Source: Blastomonas sp. | GTDB lineage: Bacteria; Pseudomonadota; Alphaproteobacteria; Sphingomonadales; Sphingomonadaceae | NCBI RefSeq assembly: GCF_030373265.1 | Contig: NZ_JAUCZC010000022.1 | Span: forward strand, 1-64,000 | Direction of reading: 5' to 3' | Length of the DNA: 64,000 nt | Shown here: positions 2,975-58,095 of the stretch, one piece after another | Numbering within the stretch: the stretch's first letter is position 1 | Layout of the letters: each line of letters starts with the position of its first letter | The notes under the pieces: model-generated | Database searches by the model: none | Told to the model about the DNA's origin: nothing | What the model saw: the letters and a program-made list of their open reading frames with translations, nothing else | Made by a program: the position numbers and the translations under genes

Positions 2975-3000
2975 GCGCGCGCGCTTCGCCAACCGGCCCC

Positions 3001-3081
3001 GTCACCCCCGCGCACGCGGGGGTCCCGCTTCTTCCTCTCCCTCGGCGTCAAAGCGGGATTCCCGCGTTCGCGGGAATGACG
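3001..3081 (+). repeat. Extragenic palindrome, family A copy 1
   Basis: Starts GTCACCCCCGCG and ends GGGAATGACG, with the inner stems CCCCCGCGCACGCGGGGG and ATTCCCGCGTTCGCGGGAAT. Similar copies occur at 21871 and, inverted, at 47147. It lies between two convergent genes and could also act as a bidirectional transcript end. Confidence 0.85.
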
Positions 3082-11541: not shown

Positions 11542-11617
11542 TGGTGCCCGGGGACGGGGTCGAACCGCCGACACTGCGATTTTCAATCGCATGCTCTACC
11601 AACTGAGCTACCCGGGC
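11542..11617 (-). tRNA. tRNA-Phe (anticodon GAA)
   Basis: A 76-nt cloverleaf with an encoded CCA end. The acceptor stem GCCCGGG pairs with CCCGGGC, the D arm is GCTC-AGTTGGTA-GAGC, and the anticodon arm TGCGA-TTGAAAA-TCGCA gives GAA. The T arm is GGCGG-TTCGACC-CCGTC. It is the last gene of the infA-maf-RNase-yacG block on the minus strand, a common alphaproteobacterial order. Confidence 0.97.
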
Positions 11618-21838: not shown

Positions 21839-21870
21839 GCGGCCTGCGTTTTCACAGATTGAATTAAATC

Positions 21871-22085
21871 GTCACCCCCGCGCAGGCGGGGGTCCCGCTT
21901 CTGCGCCGAGCCTCGCCAAAGCGGGATTCCCGCTTTCGCGGGAATGACGGGGATTTGAGCCTACCGGTCCCCTGCGAAGGCAGGGGCCCATCTCCTGACG
22001 TCGCGACCAGATGCACCATCCGGAGGTGAACCCCGCCTTCGCGGGGGAGCGCAGATGGGGTCGGCAGTTGTCCCCAGCGCGAAGG
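21871..22085 (+). repeat. Extragenic palindrome, family A copy 2 with extension
   Basis: The core 21871-21949 (GTCACCCCCGCGCAGGCGGG to GGGAATGACG) is close to the copy at 3001. It is followed to about 22085 by more small palindromes (CCTGCGAAGGCAGG, CCCGCCTTCGCGGGG). It fills most of the gap between def and rmuC, in which I see nothing else. Confidence 0.8.
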
Positions 22086-38428: not shown

Positions 38429-38467
38429 GCCGGTTGGGCTGAGGCCCGCAGCCTTCGCAACACCTTG

Positions 38468-38594
38468 AAATCCTCCCCTGACAGGGGAGGGGGACCGCCC
38501 GCACAGCGGGTGGTGGAGGGGTGTCCACGTCGGCGAGAGGGTGACACCCCTCCGTCAGGCTACGCCTGCCACCTCCCCTTGCAGGGGAGGATTT
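38468..38594 (+). repeat. Palindromic repeat family B copy 2
   Basis: AAATCCTCCCCTGACAGGGG at the left end and CCTTGCAGGGGAGGATTT at the right, with GTGTCCACGTCGGCGAGAGG in the middle. It is almost identical to copy 3 at 38755, including the sequence before the left arm (TGAGGCCCGCAGCCTTCGC here, CGAGGCCCGAGGTCTTCGC there). Confidence 0.9.
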
Positions 38595-38754
38595 CGAGCA
38601 AAAGTCGAATGGTGTTTCCATGGAATTTCTGGCGGTGGGCTCGTCTTGGGGCAGCCGTTCCAATGTGATGCTTCTTCGGCGATCACTGATGCAGCGGTGA
38701 CCGGGCATCCTTGAACGCAGGTGGGCCGAGGCCCGAGGTCTTCGCGACCCCTTA

Positions 38755-38882
38755 AAATCCTCCCCTGGCAGGGGAGGGGGACCGCCCGCATAGCGGGTGG
38801 TGGAGGGGTGTCCACGTCGGCGAGAGGGTGACACCCCTCCGTCAGGCTACGCCTGCCACCTCCCCTTGCAGGGGAGGATTTT
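38755..38882 (+). repeat. Palindromic repeat family B copy 3
   Basis: Nearly identical to copy 2 across the whole unit, in the same orientation and 287 bp further on. The two copies and the 160 bp between them occupy the gap after the TPR gene, in which I see no other coding sequence. Confidence 0.9.
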
Positions 38883-42223: not shown

Positions 42224-42365
42224 CAAATCCTCACCCGGAACGGGGAGGTGGCAGCGCGCAGCGCTGACGGAGGGGAAGCGGCTGGTCGCCATGCGGCGAG
42301 GGGGGCACAATCGCGCTTCCCCTCCACCGCTTCGCGGTCCCCCTCCCCTGGCAGGGGAGGATTTT
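42224..42365 (+). repeat. Palindromic repeat family B copy 4, with Shine-Dalgarno at its end
   Basis: Starts CAAATCCTCACCCGGAACGG and ends CAGGGGAGGATTTTC. The end contains GGAGG at 42356-42360, 9 nt before the ATG of the carboxylase beta gene. It fills the gap between liuA and liuB. Confidence 0.9.
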
Positions 42366-42369
42366 CAGC

Positions 42370-43971
42370 ATGACCGCGCCCACGCTCGACACCAAGATCG
42401 ACACCCATTCAGACACCTACCGCGCATCGTTCACGCACAATGTCACCCTGCGCGATGAACTCTGGAGCAAAGTCGCCGAAGCCGCATTGGGCGGCAACGC
42501 CAAGTCGCGCGAGCGGCATACATCGCGCGGCAAGCTGCTTCCGCGCGAACGCGTCGAGCGGCTGCTCGATCCGGGCTCGCCGTTCCTCGAGATCGGCCAG
42601 CTCGCCGCAAACGACCTGTACGACGGCGAGATCCCCGGCGCAGGGATGATCGCCGGCATCGGCCGTGTGTCGGGCCGCCAGTGCATGATCGTGTGCAACG
42701 ACGCCACGGTCAAAGGCGGCACGTACTACCCGATGACGGTCAAGAAGCACCTGCGCGCGCAGGAGATCGCCGAGGCCAACCGGCTGCCGTGCGTCTATCT
42801 GGTCGATTCGGGCGGCGCCAACCTGCCGCACCAGGCCGAGGTCTTCCCCGACCGCGACCATTTCGGCCGCATCTTCTTCAACCAGGCGAACATGTCTGCC
42901 AAGGGCATCCCGCAGATCGCCTGCGTGATGGGCAGCTGCACCGCGGGCGGGGCGTATGTGCCTGCAATGTCTGACGAAAGCGTCATCGTGCGCAACCAGG
43001 GCACGATCTTCCTCGCCGGCCCCCCGCTGGTCAAGGCCGCGACGGGCGAGGAGATAACAGCCGAGGATCTGGGCGGCGGCGACCTGCACGGGCGCAAATC
43101 GGGCGTGGTCGATCATGTCGCCGAGAACGACGAGCACGCGCTGACCATCGTGCGCGACATCGTCTCGCATCTGGGCCCGATCCCCAAGCCGAACATCGAT
43201 GTCCGCGAACCACGCGCGCCCAGGTTCGATGCGGAAGAGCTGTACGGCATCATCCCCTCGGACGTCCGCGCGCCATACGATGTGCACGAGGTGATCGCGC
43301 GGATCGTCGACGGCAGCGAGTTTCACGAGTTCAAGGCGCTCTACGGCAGTTCCTTGGTCTGCGGTTTCGCGCATATCTGGGGAATGCCGGTGGCTATCCT
43401 CGCCAACAACGGCGTGCTGTTCAGCGAAAGCGCGGTCAAAGGCGCGCATTTCATCGAACTCGCCTGCCAGCGGCGCATTCCCTTGCTGTTCCTGCAGAAC
43501 ATCTCGGGCTTCATGGTCGGTGGCAAGTATGAGGCCGAAGGCATTGCCAAACATGGCGCGAAATTGGTCACCGCAGTCGCCACCGCGAGCGTTCCCAAGG
43601 TCACCGTGCTGATCGGCGGCAGCTTCGGCGCGGGCAATTACGGCATGTGCGGGCGCGCTTATAGCCCACGGTTCCTGTTCAGTTGGCCGAACTCGCGCAT
43701 CAGCGTGATGGGTGGCGAGCAGGCGGCGTCCGTGCTCGCGACCGTCCACCGCGATGCCGACAGCTGGACCCCCGAGCAGGCCGAAGCCTTCAAGCAGCCG
43801 ATCCGTGATGATTACGAGGCGCAGGGCAGTCCGTACCACGCGACCTCGCGGCTGTGGGACGACGGGGTCATCGACCCCGCGCAGACGAGGGACGTGCTGG
43901 GGTTGGCCTTCGCGGCGTGCCTCAACGCACCGGTCGAGGAGGGCACGCGGTTCGGCGTGTTCCGGATGTGA
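42370..43971 (+). CDS. liuB: Methylcrotonyl-CoA carboxylase beta subunit
   Basis: A 533-residue carboxyltransferase subunit that moves CO2 from biotin to 3-methylcrotonyl-CoA. The two crotonase-like halves are visible: the N-terminal half with [18 protein letters not shown] and [18 protein letters not shown], and the C-terminal half with [20 protein letters not shown] and [18 protein letters not shown]. The SGGANLP and [12 protein letters not shown] stretches distinguish methylcrotonyl- from propionyl-CoA carboxylases. The only ribosome site is GGAGG in the preceding repeat. Confidence 0.94.
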
Positions 43972-43986: not shown

Positions 43987-44127
43987 AAAATCCTCCCCGA
44001 AACGGGGAGGGGGACCATCCGCAGGATGGTGGAGGGGAAGCCGGATTGTGCCGTGTTCTAAGCGGAGTCACAATCCCGCTACCCCTCCACCGCTTCGCGG
44101 TCCCCCTCCCCCAAGGGGGAGGATTTT
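43987..44127 (+). repeat. Palindromic repeat family B copy 5 upstream of DUF559 gene
   Basis: Both halves are complete: AAAATCCTCCCCGAAACGGG at the left and CCAAGGGGGAGGATTTT at the right. GGAGG at 44118-44122 lies 9 nt before the GTG of the nuclease gene. Confidence 0.9.
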
Positions 44128-44131
44128 AGTC

Positions 44132-44541
44132 GTGCTGCGTTCGCCTCGAGCTCTAGTCAAACGCAGCCGTAAGCTGCGCAAGGCTATGTCGCTGCCCGAG
44201 GTGCTGTTGTGGCAGGAGTTGCGCAAGCGGCCTTCGGGGCTGAAGTTTCGCAGGCAGCACACCGTCGGGCATTATGTGCTCGACTTCTTTTGCGCCGAGG
44301 CATCGCTGTGCATCGAGATCGACGGCGAACAGCATAACGCGGGCGACCAGCCTGAATTTGATGACAGCAGGGGGGCTTGGCTCGACCTGCATGGAATAAA
44401 AACGCTGCGGATCAACGCTGCGGACGTTTTGAACAATCTGGAGAGTGTTGTGGAGCATATCGTGGACATCGCATTGCAGAGGCTTCCCCTCCACCGTCCT
44501 GCGGACGGTCCCCCTCCCCGTGCCGGGGAGGATTTGGGCGC

Positions 44542-44548
<7 letters not shown>
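44132..44548 (+). CDS. DUF559 endonuclease-like protein lodged in the leucine operon
   Basis: A 138-residue DUF559 protein, a family related to Vsr-type PD-(D/E)xK nucleases. Conserved features are RALVKRSRKLRKAMSLPEVL (E23), LKFRRQHTVGHYVLDFF with H43 and D51, and the active-site strand LCIEIDGEQHN (E62, D64, H68). The GTG at 44132 is chosen because the family N-terminus starts there and a repeat-borne GGAGG lies 9 nt upstream; an ATG at 44186 is the alternative. Residues 118-138 are encoded by a family B half-repeat. The stop lies 7 nt inside the next gene. It has no role in leucine breakdown and looks like an insertion. Confidence 0.85.
44482..44535 (+). repeat. Palindromic repeat family B half copy 6, downstream of DUF559
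   Basis: GCTTCCCCTCCACCGTCCTG through GGGGAGGATTT, matching only the right half of copies 4 and 5. It encodes the C-terminus of DUF559 and supplies GGAGG at 44527-44531, 10 nt before the ATG of the next gene. Confidence 0.88.
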
Positions 44549-46461
<1,913 letters not shown>

Positions 46462-47144: not shown

Positions 47145-47146
47145 CC

Positions 47147-47228
47147 CGTCATTCCCGCCAGCGCGGGAATCCCGCTTCTAAGCTGAGGGCGGCGCACAAG
47201 CGGGACCCCCGCGTGCGCGGGGGTGACG
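47147..47228 (-). repeat. Extragenic palindrome, family A copy 3 (inverted)
   Basis: CGTCATTCCCGCCAGCGCGG at the left and GTGCGCGGGGGTGACG at the right, the reverse of the copies at 3001 and 21871. It lies directly after the MaoC stop codon. Confidence 0.85.
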
Positions 47229-47370
47229 ATCAGCCTTTCGCATAGGCTGCAATCAAATCAGTGCCTTGCGTTGATTTGTATACGAAAATGCAACCCAACC
47301 CCTTGACCCCGCAAGCCCGCCCTGCGTCTAATGCAGTTAACCAAGAAACGGCAATCCGGGGTCAAACATC

Positions 47371-53672: not shown

Positions 53673-53715
53673 GAGGGTAAGTACGGTCGCTCAGTCGCGG
53701 GTTCAAACTCACCTC

Positions 53716-53748
53716 CGCTCAGCCTGAGCCTGTCGAAGGCCCCGCGCC
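53716..53748 (+). repeat. Palindromic repeat family D copy 1
   Basis: CGCTCAGCCTGAGCCTGTCG then AAGGCCCCGCGCC. A direct copy lies at 53776 and an inverted one at 54125. It contains the small palindrome CTCAGCCTGAG. Confidence 0.85.
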
Positions 53749-53767
53749 TTCCTATGGCGGGGTCACA

Positions 53768-54103
53768 TCATACCCCGCTCAGCCTGAGTTTGTCGAAGGC
53801 CCCGCGCCCACCCTTTCCGTATTGAGATCGGTTCCGCGCAAGGTTCGAAATCAATTCCCAGTCTCCCGCTATTAATGCTTCCTTCTTTGCACGAGACCAG
53901 CCTTTGATCTGCTGCTCGACCCAAAAGGCATGGTCGCGTGTCGCAAAATCTTCCGACCAGATTAGTTCTACCGGTCGGCGCTTGGCCGTGTATCCGCCCA
54001 GTGCGCCAGCTTGATGTTGAGAGAGACGGTGATCGAGATCATCGGTGTGACCGGCGTAATAGCTGCCATCGTTGCATCGCAGGAGGTACGCGTAAAAGGC
54101 CAT
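53768..54103 (-). CDS. GIY-YIG nuclease bracketed by inverted repeats
   Basis: A 111-residue single-domain GIY-YIG protein (YhbQ/UPF0213-like). The two halves of the signature are YAY (4-6) and YYAG (15-18); R26 and the metal-binding E63 (WVEQQIKGWSRAKKEALI) are present, so it is probably active as a DNA nickase or nuclease. Residues 100-111 come from repeat D2, so the original end of the domain lies near GKGGRG. Copy D3 lies 22 bp upstream in the inverse orientation, giving a roughly 380-bp repeat-gene-repeat unit. The ribosome site (AGGAC) is very close to the ATG. Confidence 0.9.
   Translation of the reverse strand: MAFYAYLLRCNDGSYYAGHTDDLDHRLSQHQAGALGGYTAKRRPVELIWSEDFATRDHAFWVEQQIKGWSRAKKEALIAGDWELISNLARNRSQYGKGGRGAFDKLRLSGV
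53776..53808 (+). repeat. Palindromic repeat family D copy 2, end of GIY-YIG gene
   Basis: CGCTCAGCCTGAGTTTGTCG then AAGGCCCCGCGCC. Read from the opposite strand it encodes the C-terminus (about AFDKLRLSG) of the GIY-YIG gene. It faces copy 3 as an inverted repeat across the gene. Confidence 0.88.
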
Positions 54104-54124
54104 GTCCTATACGCTGGCGTCTTC

Positions 54125-54155
54125 GCGGGGCCTTCGACAAGCTCAGGCTGAGCGG
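54125..54155 (-). repeat. Palindromic repeat family D copy 3 (inverted)
   Basis: GCGGGGCCTTCGACAAGCTC then AGGCTGAGCGG, the reverse complement of copies 1 and 2. It lies just upstream of the GIY-YIG start. Confidence 0.87.
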
Positions 54156-54190
54156 AGCTGGGCACAAGGCCAGAGACTAGGTGGGGAGCC

Positions 54191-56678: not shown

Positions 56679-56797
56679 AAATCCTCCCCGGTACGGGGAG
56701 GGGGACCACGAAGTGGTGGAGGGGTGTCACGCTCTCGAATGGGCGACACCCCTCCGTCAGGCCTGCGGCCTGCCACCTCCCCTGAAGGGGAGGATTT
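56679..56797 (+). repeat. Palindromic repeat family B copy 7
   Basis: AAATCCTCCCCGGTACGGGG at the left and CCCCTGAAGGGGAGGATTT at the right, with CCTCCGTCAGGCCTGCGGCC in between. It lies between two convergent genes, ppi and LysR, where no ribosome site is needed. Confidence 0.88.
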
Positions 56798-57809: not shown

Positions 57810-57900
57810 AATAAGGGTCTCTGACCCATATTGATCATGCCTTTCAGGCATCCTCTCCTAAAAACTTTATCGGGTCAGCCTTCGGGCTGGCCCTTTTTTT
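57810..57900 (+). ncRNA. Candidate small RNA with three hairpins and terminator
   Basis: No coding gene is found in this direction, yet a full terminator is present, so a transcript probably exists. Order: AATAAGGGTC-TCT-GACCCATATT (57810-57832, one mismatch), ATGCCT-TTC-AGGCAT (57837-57851), the unpaired CCTCTCC and A-rich stretch (57852-57871) and the terminator stem. The CCTCTCC motif resembles the anti-Shine-Dalgarno segments of many alphaproteobacterial small RNAs. The 5' end is uncertain because no -35/-10 was placed with confidence; the first hairpin may be part of the promoter or an operator. Confidence 0.5.
57872..57900 (+). terminator. Intrinsic terminator of the candidate small RNA
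   Basis: GGGTCAGCC pairs with GGCTGGCCC (one G-T pair) around a TTCG tetraloop, followed by seven T (57894-57900). It lies in the region 57690-58095, which I otherwise find non-coding. Confidence 0.9.
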
Positions 57901-58095
57901 GTCTATTGGAGCCTGAAGGCGCGGGCCTAACCAATTGTTTTGCGCTTTGCAAACCCTTTGATTTCCTTGGATTGCCGCACGTAACGCGTCCGTCAGCCTG
58001 CACACGTTTGCATGAACGCGCTGTCTACCGGTGTCACCTGGGCCGGGTGTTGTCCGGAATCCGCCAATACACCAAGCGGTGATTCGGCTCGCGAA

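Follow-up and report, generated by a model that had tools for sequence, protein, structure and literature searches.

Known systems of palindromic repeats

REP sequences and their RAYT (TnpA-REP) proteins are among the closest described parallels to the locus reported here, a DUF559 nuclease gene set between palindromic arms, named family B, in an operon of Blastomonas sp. As the available text of two reports describes them, the two share palindromes on both flanks of an enzyme gene, inverted doublets of these palindromes at dispersed places and the presence of several enzyme-specific repeat families in one genome (PMC3116915, PMC3733652). The enzymes, on the other hand, are different, being an HUH tyrosine transposase in the one case and a DUF559 nuclease in the other. 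B arms, when read from the sequence, also carry no GTAG tag and begin with AAATCC, and DUF559 units are found between the genes of operons. The predominance of inverted doublets holds for family B (58 of the 79 arms in the Blastomonas genome) but not for a second, F type of arm, of which the genus has no copies away from the gene.

Dispersed palindromes are common in Alphaproteobacteria, including the CGTC-1 to CGTC-4 REPs, which occur mostly as inverted dimers and, in the available text of a 2013 survey, seem to lack a dedicated transposase (PMC3733652). The elements described here resemble them in these respects, but family B is not CGTC-tagged, and the CGTC repeats turn out to bracket genes of another nuclease family, GIY-YIG. 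Insertion sequences and their MITEs likewise combine a gene between terminal inverted repeats with short gene-less derivatives, although no transposase domain was found in the Blastomonas protein and each arm is itself palindromic. Both nuclease families appear to share folds with homing endonucleases, namely the EDxHD enzyme I-Bth0305I and the GIY-YIG enzyme I-TevI, in the part of the source that treats these folds (PMC3943268). Homing endonucleases aim at one site, however, whereas related units here are spread over liu, pnt, suf, hpa and paa operons, and palindromic arms come with them. Finally, Caulobacter VsrA has the DUF559 Pfam domain in common with the present protein but was studied, in the accessible text of that report, as a mismatch-repair nuclease (PMC12907096).

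The DUF559–palindrome pairs work like REP/RAYT and IS/MITE systems, yet belong to neither by their enzyme. No description of such a pairing was found in a literature search whose scope excluded most subscription journals and all of bioRxiv. We consider it probable that this system resembles REP/RAYT, with a hydrolytic nuclease acting on the palindromes cognate to it, and that the pair of DUF559 and family B belongs to a large class of mobile elements.

A nuclease gene between family B arms

The window, by which we mean the whole stretch of 64,000 nt that was analyzed (contig NZ_JAUCZC010000022.1, positions 1 to 64,000), carries the DUF559 (PF04480) nuclease-like gene at 44132–44548 on the + strand (138 aa, GTG start to TGA). 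The initial annotation had placed this gene between the beta and alpha subunit genes of methylcrotonyl-CoA carboxylase, and the neighbors fit: liuB, the beta-like carboxyl transferase gene, lies at 42370–43971 (+), and liuD, the alpha-like gene for the biotin carboxylase/biotin carrier subunit, at 44542–46461 (+), both being genes of the host operon. In a profile search, PF04480 covered residues 9–112 of the protein with an E value of 8.9e-27 (93.6 bits against a cut-off of 20.6) and was alone in exceeding its cut-off; neither an HUH tyrosine transposase nor any other transposase domain was found in the protein by this search. The MTES_1575 profile and the NCBIfam DUF559 equivalog PRK09767 both stayed below their own cut-offs.

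Upstream of the gene lies a full family B doublet (43988–44129), made up of a left arm at 43988–44042 (+), with a hairpin CCTCCCC/GGGGAGG, a second hairpin and the tail GGTGGAGGGG, and a right arm at 44081–44129 (−; pattern match 44104–44126). A further arm at 44481–44535 (−) overlaps the 3' end of the gene and forms an inverted pair with the left arm, 93% complementary over 55 nt. The full element upstream and the half element downstream had both been annotated correctly, except that the latter encodes about residues 117–135 rather than 118–138. When folded as single-stranded DNA, each 55-nt arm forms two hairpins, and the entire doublet forms one long hairpin (z −10.4). No Rfam family matched the arms at the gathering threshold, the sole matches in the window being a suhB/mmgR-type small RNA (57832–57908) and a tRNA (11545–11617).

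Bracketing of DUF559 genes across genomes

How general is this arrangement? Bracketing was scored as the best inverted match between the 300-nt flanks of a gene, with a cut-off of 16 or more. The Blastomonas genome has four DUF559 genes, all of them bracketed, and the palindrome is different for each: the other three are without a B arm, and both flanks of each carry an inverted palindrome of its own; for one of these palindromes, CCCCTCCCCTTCAGGGGAGGGGTTGGGGTGGGG, the two flanking copies are identical over 39 nt. An exclusive tie of DUF559 to family B is thereby ruled out, all the more so as a B-flanked gene is present in just 11 of 47 genomes. The pairing of nuclease and repeat that was originally proposed is supported, but family B is not the general partner, since each subfamily has its own palindrome.

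Repeats on both sides, which the initial annotation had suggested looking for around DUF559 genes elsewhere, are indeed present. In the genus (nine genomes with 25 DUF559 genes, three of them untestable at contig ends), 22/22 testable genes were bracketed. In a sample of the class, the count was 52/66 (68 genes of 36 genomes, 66 of them scored; partial matches from E 1.2e-17 upward were left out), and in a sample of the family 48/68 (68 genes of 33 genomes; partial, split and second-domain matches and one near full-length match, G154:C2:168559, E 1.5e-10, were left out). A named-genome scan gave 31 of 34 loci, with one of the three misses (L301) not being a DUF559 gene, and a search of the phylum gave 15 of 26 new loci among the matches listed, including 10 of 16 outside Alphaproteobacteria. 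In a plasmid collection, 10 of the 17 DUF559 loci scored (17 of 38 records) were bracketed, with positives in Deinococcus, Pseudanabaena and Sinorhizobium and negatives in E. coli and Neisseria. Single cases from this collection prove little, however, since controls in repeat-rich records sometimes scored high (up to 32.0 for DUF559 and up to 28.5 for GIY-YIG). One of the positives, from Sinorhizobium meliloti (L316), is bracketed by full doublets at 1349–1462 and 1925–2038, and 285 plasmid records, most of them from Rhizobium and Sinorhizobium, contain this doublet at a total of at least 902 places.

The arms are often G+C-rich and simple, and in GC-rich genomes such matches might arise by chance or from base composition. 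This explanation has a negligible probability: the cut-off was reached by only 1/617 shifted windows and by 10/331 ORFs of the window and its syntenic stretches (called by a greedy procedure that omits the window's DUF559 gene), three of these ten being GIY-YIG genes; the reversed B pattern has no match in any of the 47 genomes; and AT-rich arms exist as well (L089). The bracketing is real and general. Unbracketed DUF559 genes do occur (14/66 in the class, 20/68 in the family), and ten of the latter 20 make up a single divergent group (L152–L161), in which flanking repeats were found in 0/10. This group perhaps has another job.

Gene-less doublets and copy number

The family B arm pattern has 79 matches in the Blastomonas genome and the reversed pattern none. 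The 58 paired arms form 29 doublets, all 29 of these close pairs being oriented +/− with a spacing of 97–131 nt, whereas random placement (2000 trials) gave a mean of 0.68 pairs and a maximum of 5. From these matches and uniform pairs it follows that family B bracketing is not due to chance. Most B-flanked genes have the left arm on the + and the right arm on the − strand, which is the orientation of the gene-less doublets, and a doublet thus corresponds to the gene-bearing unit minus its gene. In the window, gene-less doublets are dispersed at 42225–42364, on the 5' side of liuB (orthologous site empty in four of the seven other genus genomes aligned), and at 56679–56797 (site empty in both genus genomes aligned). 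Two more doublets, recognized by arm pattern and folding at 38468–38594 and as its tandem copy at 38755–38881, make up a tandem pair (38435–38881) whose members are 287 nt apart and 94% alike over 160 nt.

Dispersed copies are more numerous where the gene is present. Copies of B elsewhere in the genome had a median of 22 in the 11 genomes with a B-flanked DUF559 gene and 0 in the 36 without (p 8e-4, kinship uncorrected); for the D and E types of arm, the medians were 17.5 (n = 14) and 1 (n = 33), again with p 8e-4 and kinship uncorrected. A strict one-to-one dependence of the dispersed copies on a resident gene is nevertheless ruled out, both by the F type and by the 16 of 36 genomes that have B repeats despite having no B-flanked gene (up to 100 copies, in G157), including G003–G008 within the genus, with 7–28 copies each.

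The arms also diverge together with the nuclease. In comparisons between genomes that covered 120 bracketed genes, arm similarity was correlated with protein identity (rho 0.35; 0.27 for pairs under 45% identity), and permutations reached at most 0.137, with 0/999 as high as observed. In 52 of 79 cases, the best match from a different genome was nearer to the arms than any home paralog was; in 26 it was farther, and in one equal. A single genome can have as many as 10 DUF559 genes (G020), and these paralogs have different arms. Seven genus genomes have an F-type gene in a shared position, and in the six with both flanks the arms are 97–98% identical, while the spacers are only 51–58% identical and third codon positions 43% (7/15 pairs). 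All 13 matches to the F-type arm in the genus are at the gene. Since the F arms are conserved where the spacers are not, and have no copies elsewhere, something linked to the gene must be preserving them.

Could the nuclease genes be passengers, caught between copies of palindromes that another enzyme moves, and kept because the unit is tolerated? The abundance of B repeats in genomes without a B-flanked gene would be in line with this, as would the fact that other genes are sometimes bracketed (7 of the 331 ORFs, not counting GIY-YIG genes). We regard it as unlikely, since two unrelated nuclease families are mostly bracketed as compared with about 2% of other ORFs, since arm sequences track the nuclease sequence, and since the single-site F-type arms are conserved without any dispersed copies to serve as a source.

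Alternatively, the arms might serve the nuclease gene as terminators, attenuators or sites of autoregulation, with the dispersed copies as by-products. One arm does resemble a terminator (44105–44122), and the conserved arms of the resident F-type genes would suit a regulatory role. However, the asymmetric arm faces inward on both sides of most B-flanked genes, and only 34 of 135 bracketed genes end ahead of the downstream arm, the stop codon being within the arm in 24 and past it in 77, so that an intrinsic terminator is weak as the whole explanation. Regulation also leaves the doublets and the filled and empty sites unexplained, and is very improbable. A nuclease acting on its own palindromes, as preferred here, would explain the apparent repeat-encoded tails of so many DUF559 proteins, if the pairing holds, since the stop codon is inside or beyond the downstream arm in 101/135 genes.

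Empty and filled sites

The liuB junction was examined in 31 genomes (G165, which has no liuB locus, was left out). Between liuB and liuD, a DUF559 gene with arms was present in six, four in the direction of the operon and two opposite to it; inversion between the arms could explain the presence of both orientations. Seven genomes instead had a GIY-YIG gene at this junction, in six sister species bracketed by CGTC-tagged REPs, and in another seven the junction was short and empty (26–75 nt). One genome had a lone B arm and one had other genes in between. In the remaining nine, the stretch read did not reveal a liuD; these include G156, in which a DUF559 gene is located on the far side of liuB (1/31). 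Not every relative, therefore, has the gene here.

At the junction 5' of liuB, four genus genomes were empty and four filled, by three kinds of elements: a B doublet, another hairpin doublet and, twice, a CGTC doublet. All four filled sites have ATG at both ends, but both reading frames need ATG. The initial annotation had proposed that nuclease and repeat move as a unit. While the pairing itself is borne out, what varies between sister genomes is, for most of the sites seen, the gene-less doublet, and the gene-bearing copy can stay in place for long.

Other operons have been entered as well. In named records, DUF559 genes are found between pntA and its partner, between sufB and sufC, between paaD and paaZ and in two places of hpa operons, and in a Sphingobium record beside carboxylase genes. 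The sufB–sufC junction is occupied by DUF559 in Sphingomonas parapaucimobilis (L305) and by GIY-YIG in Azospirillum lipoferum (L322), and so resembles the liuB–liuD junction in taking one or the other depending on species.

The nuclease and its presumed action

The active site of the DUF559 protein is conserved. In 138 bracketed genes, E23, W27, Q42, D51, E62, D64, G65, H68, D77 and R80 are 98–100% conserved, and dN/dS was 0.04–0.29 in 26 of 33 pairs (seven were not computable, and many dS values exceeded 1). Profile matches included PDB 3hrl, an endonuclease-like protein, and PvuRts1I, and there was a weak match (E 0.0011) to PDB 3r3p, "Mobile intron protein," which we take to be I-Bth0305I.

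How might such an enzyme spread palindromes? The element would consist of a gene for a small hydrolytic endonuclease and the inverted pair of palindromic arms that encloses it, to which some subfamilies would add dispersed doublets of these arms that have no gene and behave like MITEs or REPINs. Most likely, the nuclease binds its cognate arm, as a duplex or as an extruded hairpin, and would then nick or cut at or beside it. Short intergenic gaps would subsequently receive the doublet or the entire unit, copied or inserted by host repair. We infer both the cutting at the arms and its role as the driver of copying. The earlier comparison to REP/RAYT systems, with a nuclease instead of a transposase, gains support from the bracketing and the doublets.

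DUF559 might, on the other hand, be a Vsr-like repair or restriction nuclease engaged in genome maintenance, with the palindromes as its marks or safe sites rather than its cargo. In Caulobacter cells that lack the cytosine methylase ScmA, the DUF559 protein VsrA provokes an SOS response, according to the accessible text of that study (PMC12907096). Such a function is difficult to reconcile with the many paralogs with different arms per genome, with the gains and losses at orthologous sites or with insertion into unrelated operons, and we give it little credence, about as little as regulation.

GIY-YIG genes and the CGTC repeats

The window has a second nuclease gene with a similar architecture. 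At 53768–54103 (−), a GIY-YIG gene, encoding an unrelated nuclease, is bracketed by its own palindrome, with a left arm at 53710–53746 (+), a second copy of it at 53775–53806 and a right arm at 54124–54160 (−; 95% inverted match). Over the stretch 53710–54160, the repeats around the gene read CCGCTCAGCCTGAGC.TGTCGAAGGCC. In the genus, 24/28 stand-alone GIY-YIG genes were bracketed, with 116 shifted windows scoring at most 14.5; the four others look like a single subfamily, and UvrC in the genus was not bracketed. In the plasmid collection, 10 of the 12 GIY-YIG loci scored (12 of 33 records) were bracketed.

The arms of the GIY-YIG genes at the liu junction read CGTC ACCCTGAA CTTGT TTCAGGGT CCA, and match the description of CGTC REPs with their CGTC tag, 8-bp stem, 5-nt loop and CCA. 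Exact copies of the CGTC hairpin core numbered 15–25 in the seven genomes with the gene at this junction and 0–13 in the other 13 (rank test, p 1.7e-4). A CGTC-type tag with hairpin, inverted and on both sides, was found for seven of the 24 bracketed GIY-YIG genes of the genus, and in the plasmid collection CGTC-type tags were present on both sides of 6/12 loci by script (allowing the variant TGTC) and of 8/12 by reading. CGTC-bracketed loci are L199, L200, L201, L211, L212, L215 and L219 and also L320–L322, L325–L328 and L330, among them dRS3-like repeats in Neisseria; for L320, the shifted control was nearly as high as the locus (25.5 versus 26.5). The GIY-YIG nuclease is thus a candidate enzyme for the CGTC class, and would, if the pairing is true, supply one where the 2013 survey, in its available text, named none (PMC3733652).

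Implications for proposed transposase-free elements

Small nuclease genes in mirror-image palindromes suggest a kind of selfish DNA that uses a plain nuclease and no transposase. A broader reading is tentative, and we put it at slightly less than an even chance: there may be several REP-like superfamilies, each with its own unrelated enzyme (GTAG with RAYT, which is known; CGTC with GIY-YIG; CCTCCCC/CCCTCTCCC with DUF559), and a large part of the short repeats in Alphaproteobacteria may be due to transposase-free elements, which may extend to other phyla. Hydrolytic nucleases of the homing type would then cut at palindromes, and host repair would spread the elements. If the pairings hold, two protein families whose only annotation is "DUF559" or "GIY-YIG nuclease family protein" are likely drivers, non-transposase enzymes join the REP/RAYT picture, and the idea lends itself to bench tests that use synthetic arms and small soluble proteins.

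The window also contains a set of repeats named family A (3000–3081, 21868–21951 and 47145–47230), which look like CGTC REPs because they have a CGTC start and a hairpin. At the orthologous places, some relatives are without them or have other repeats.
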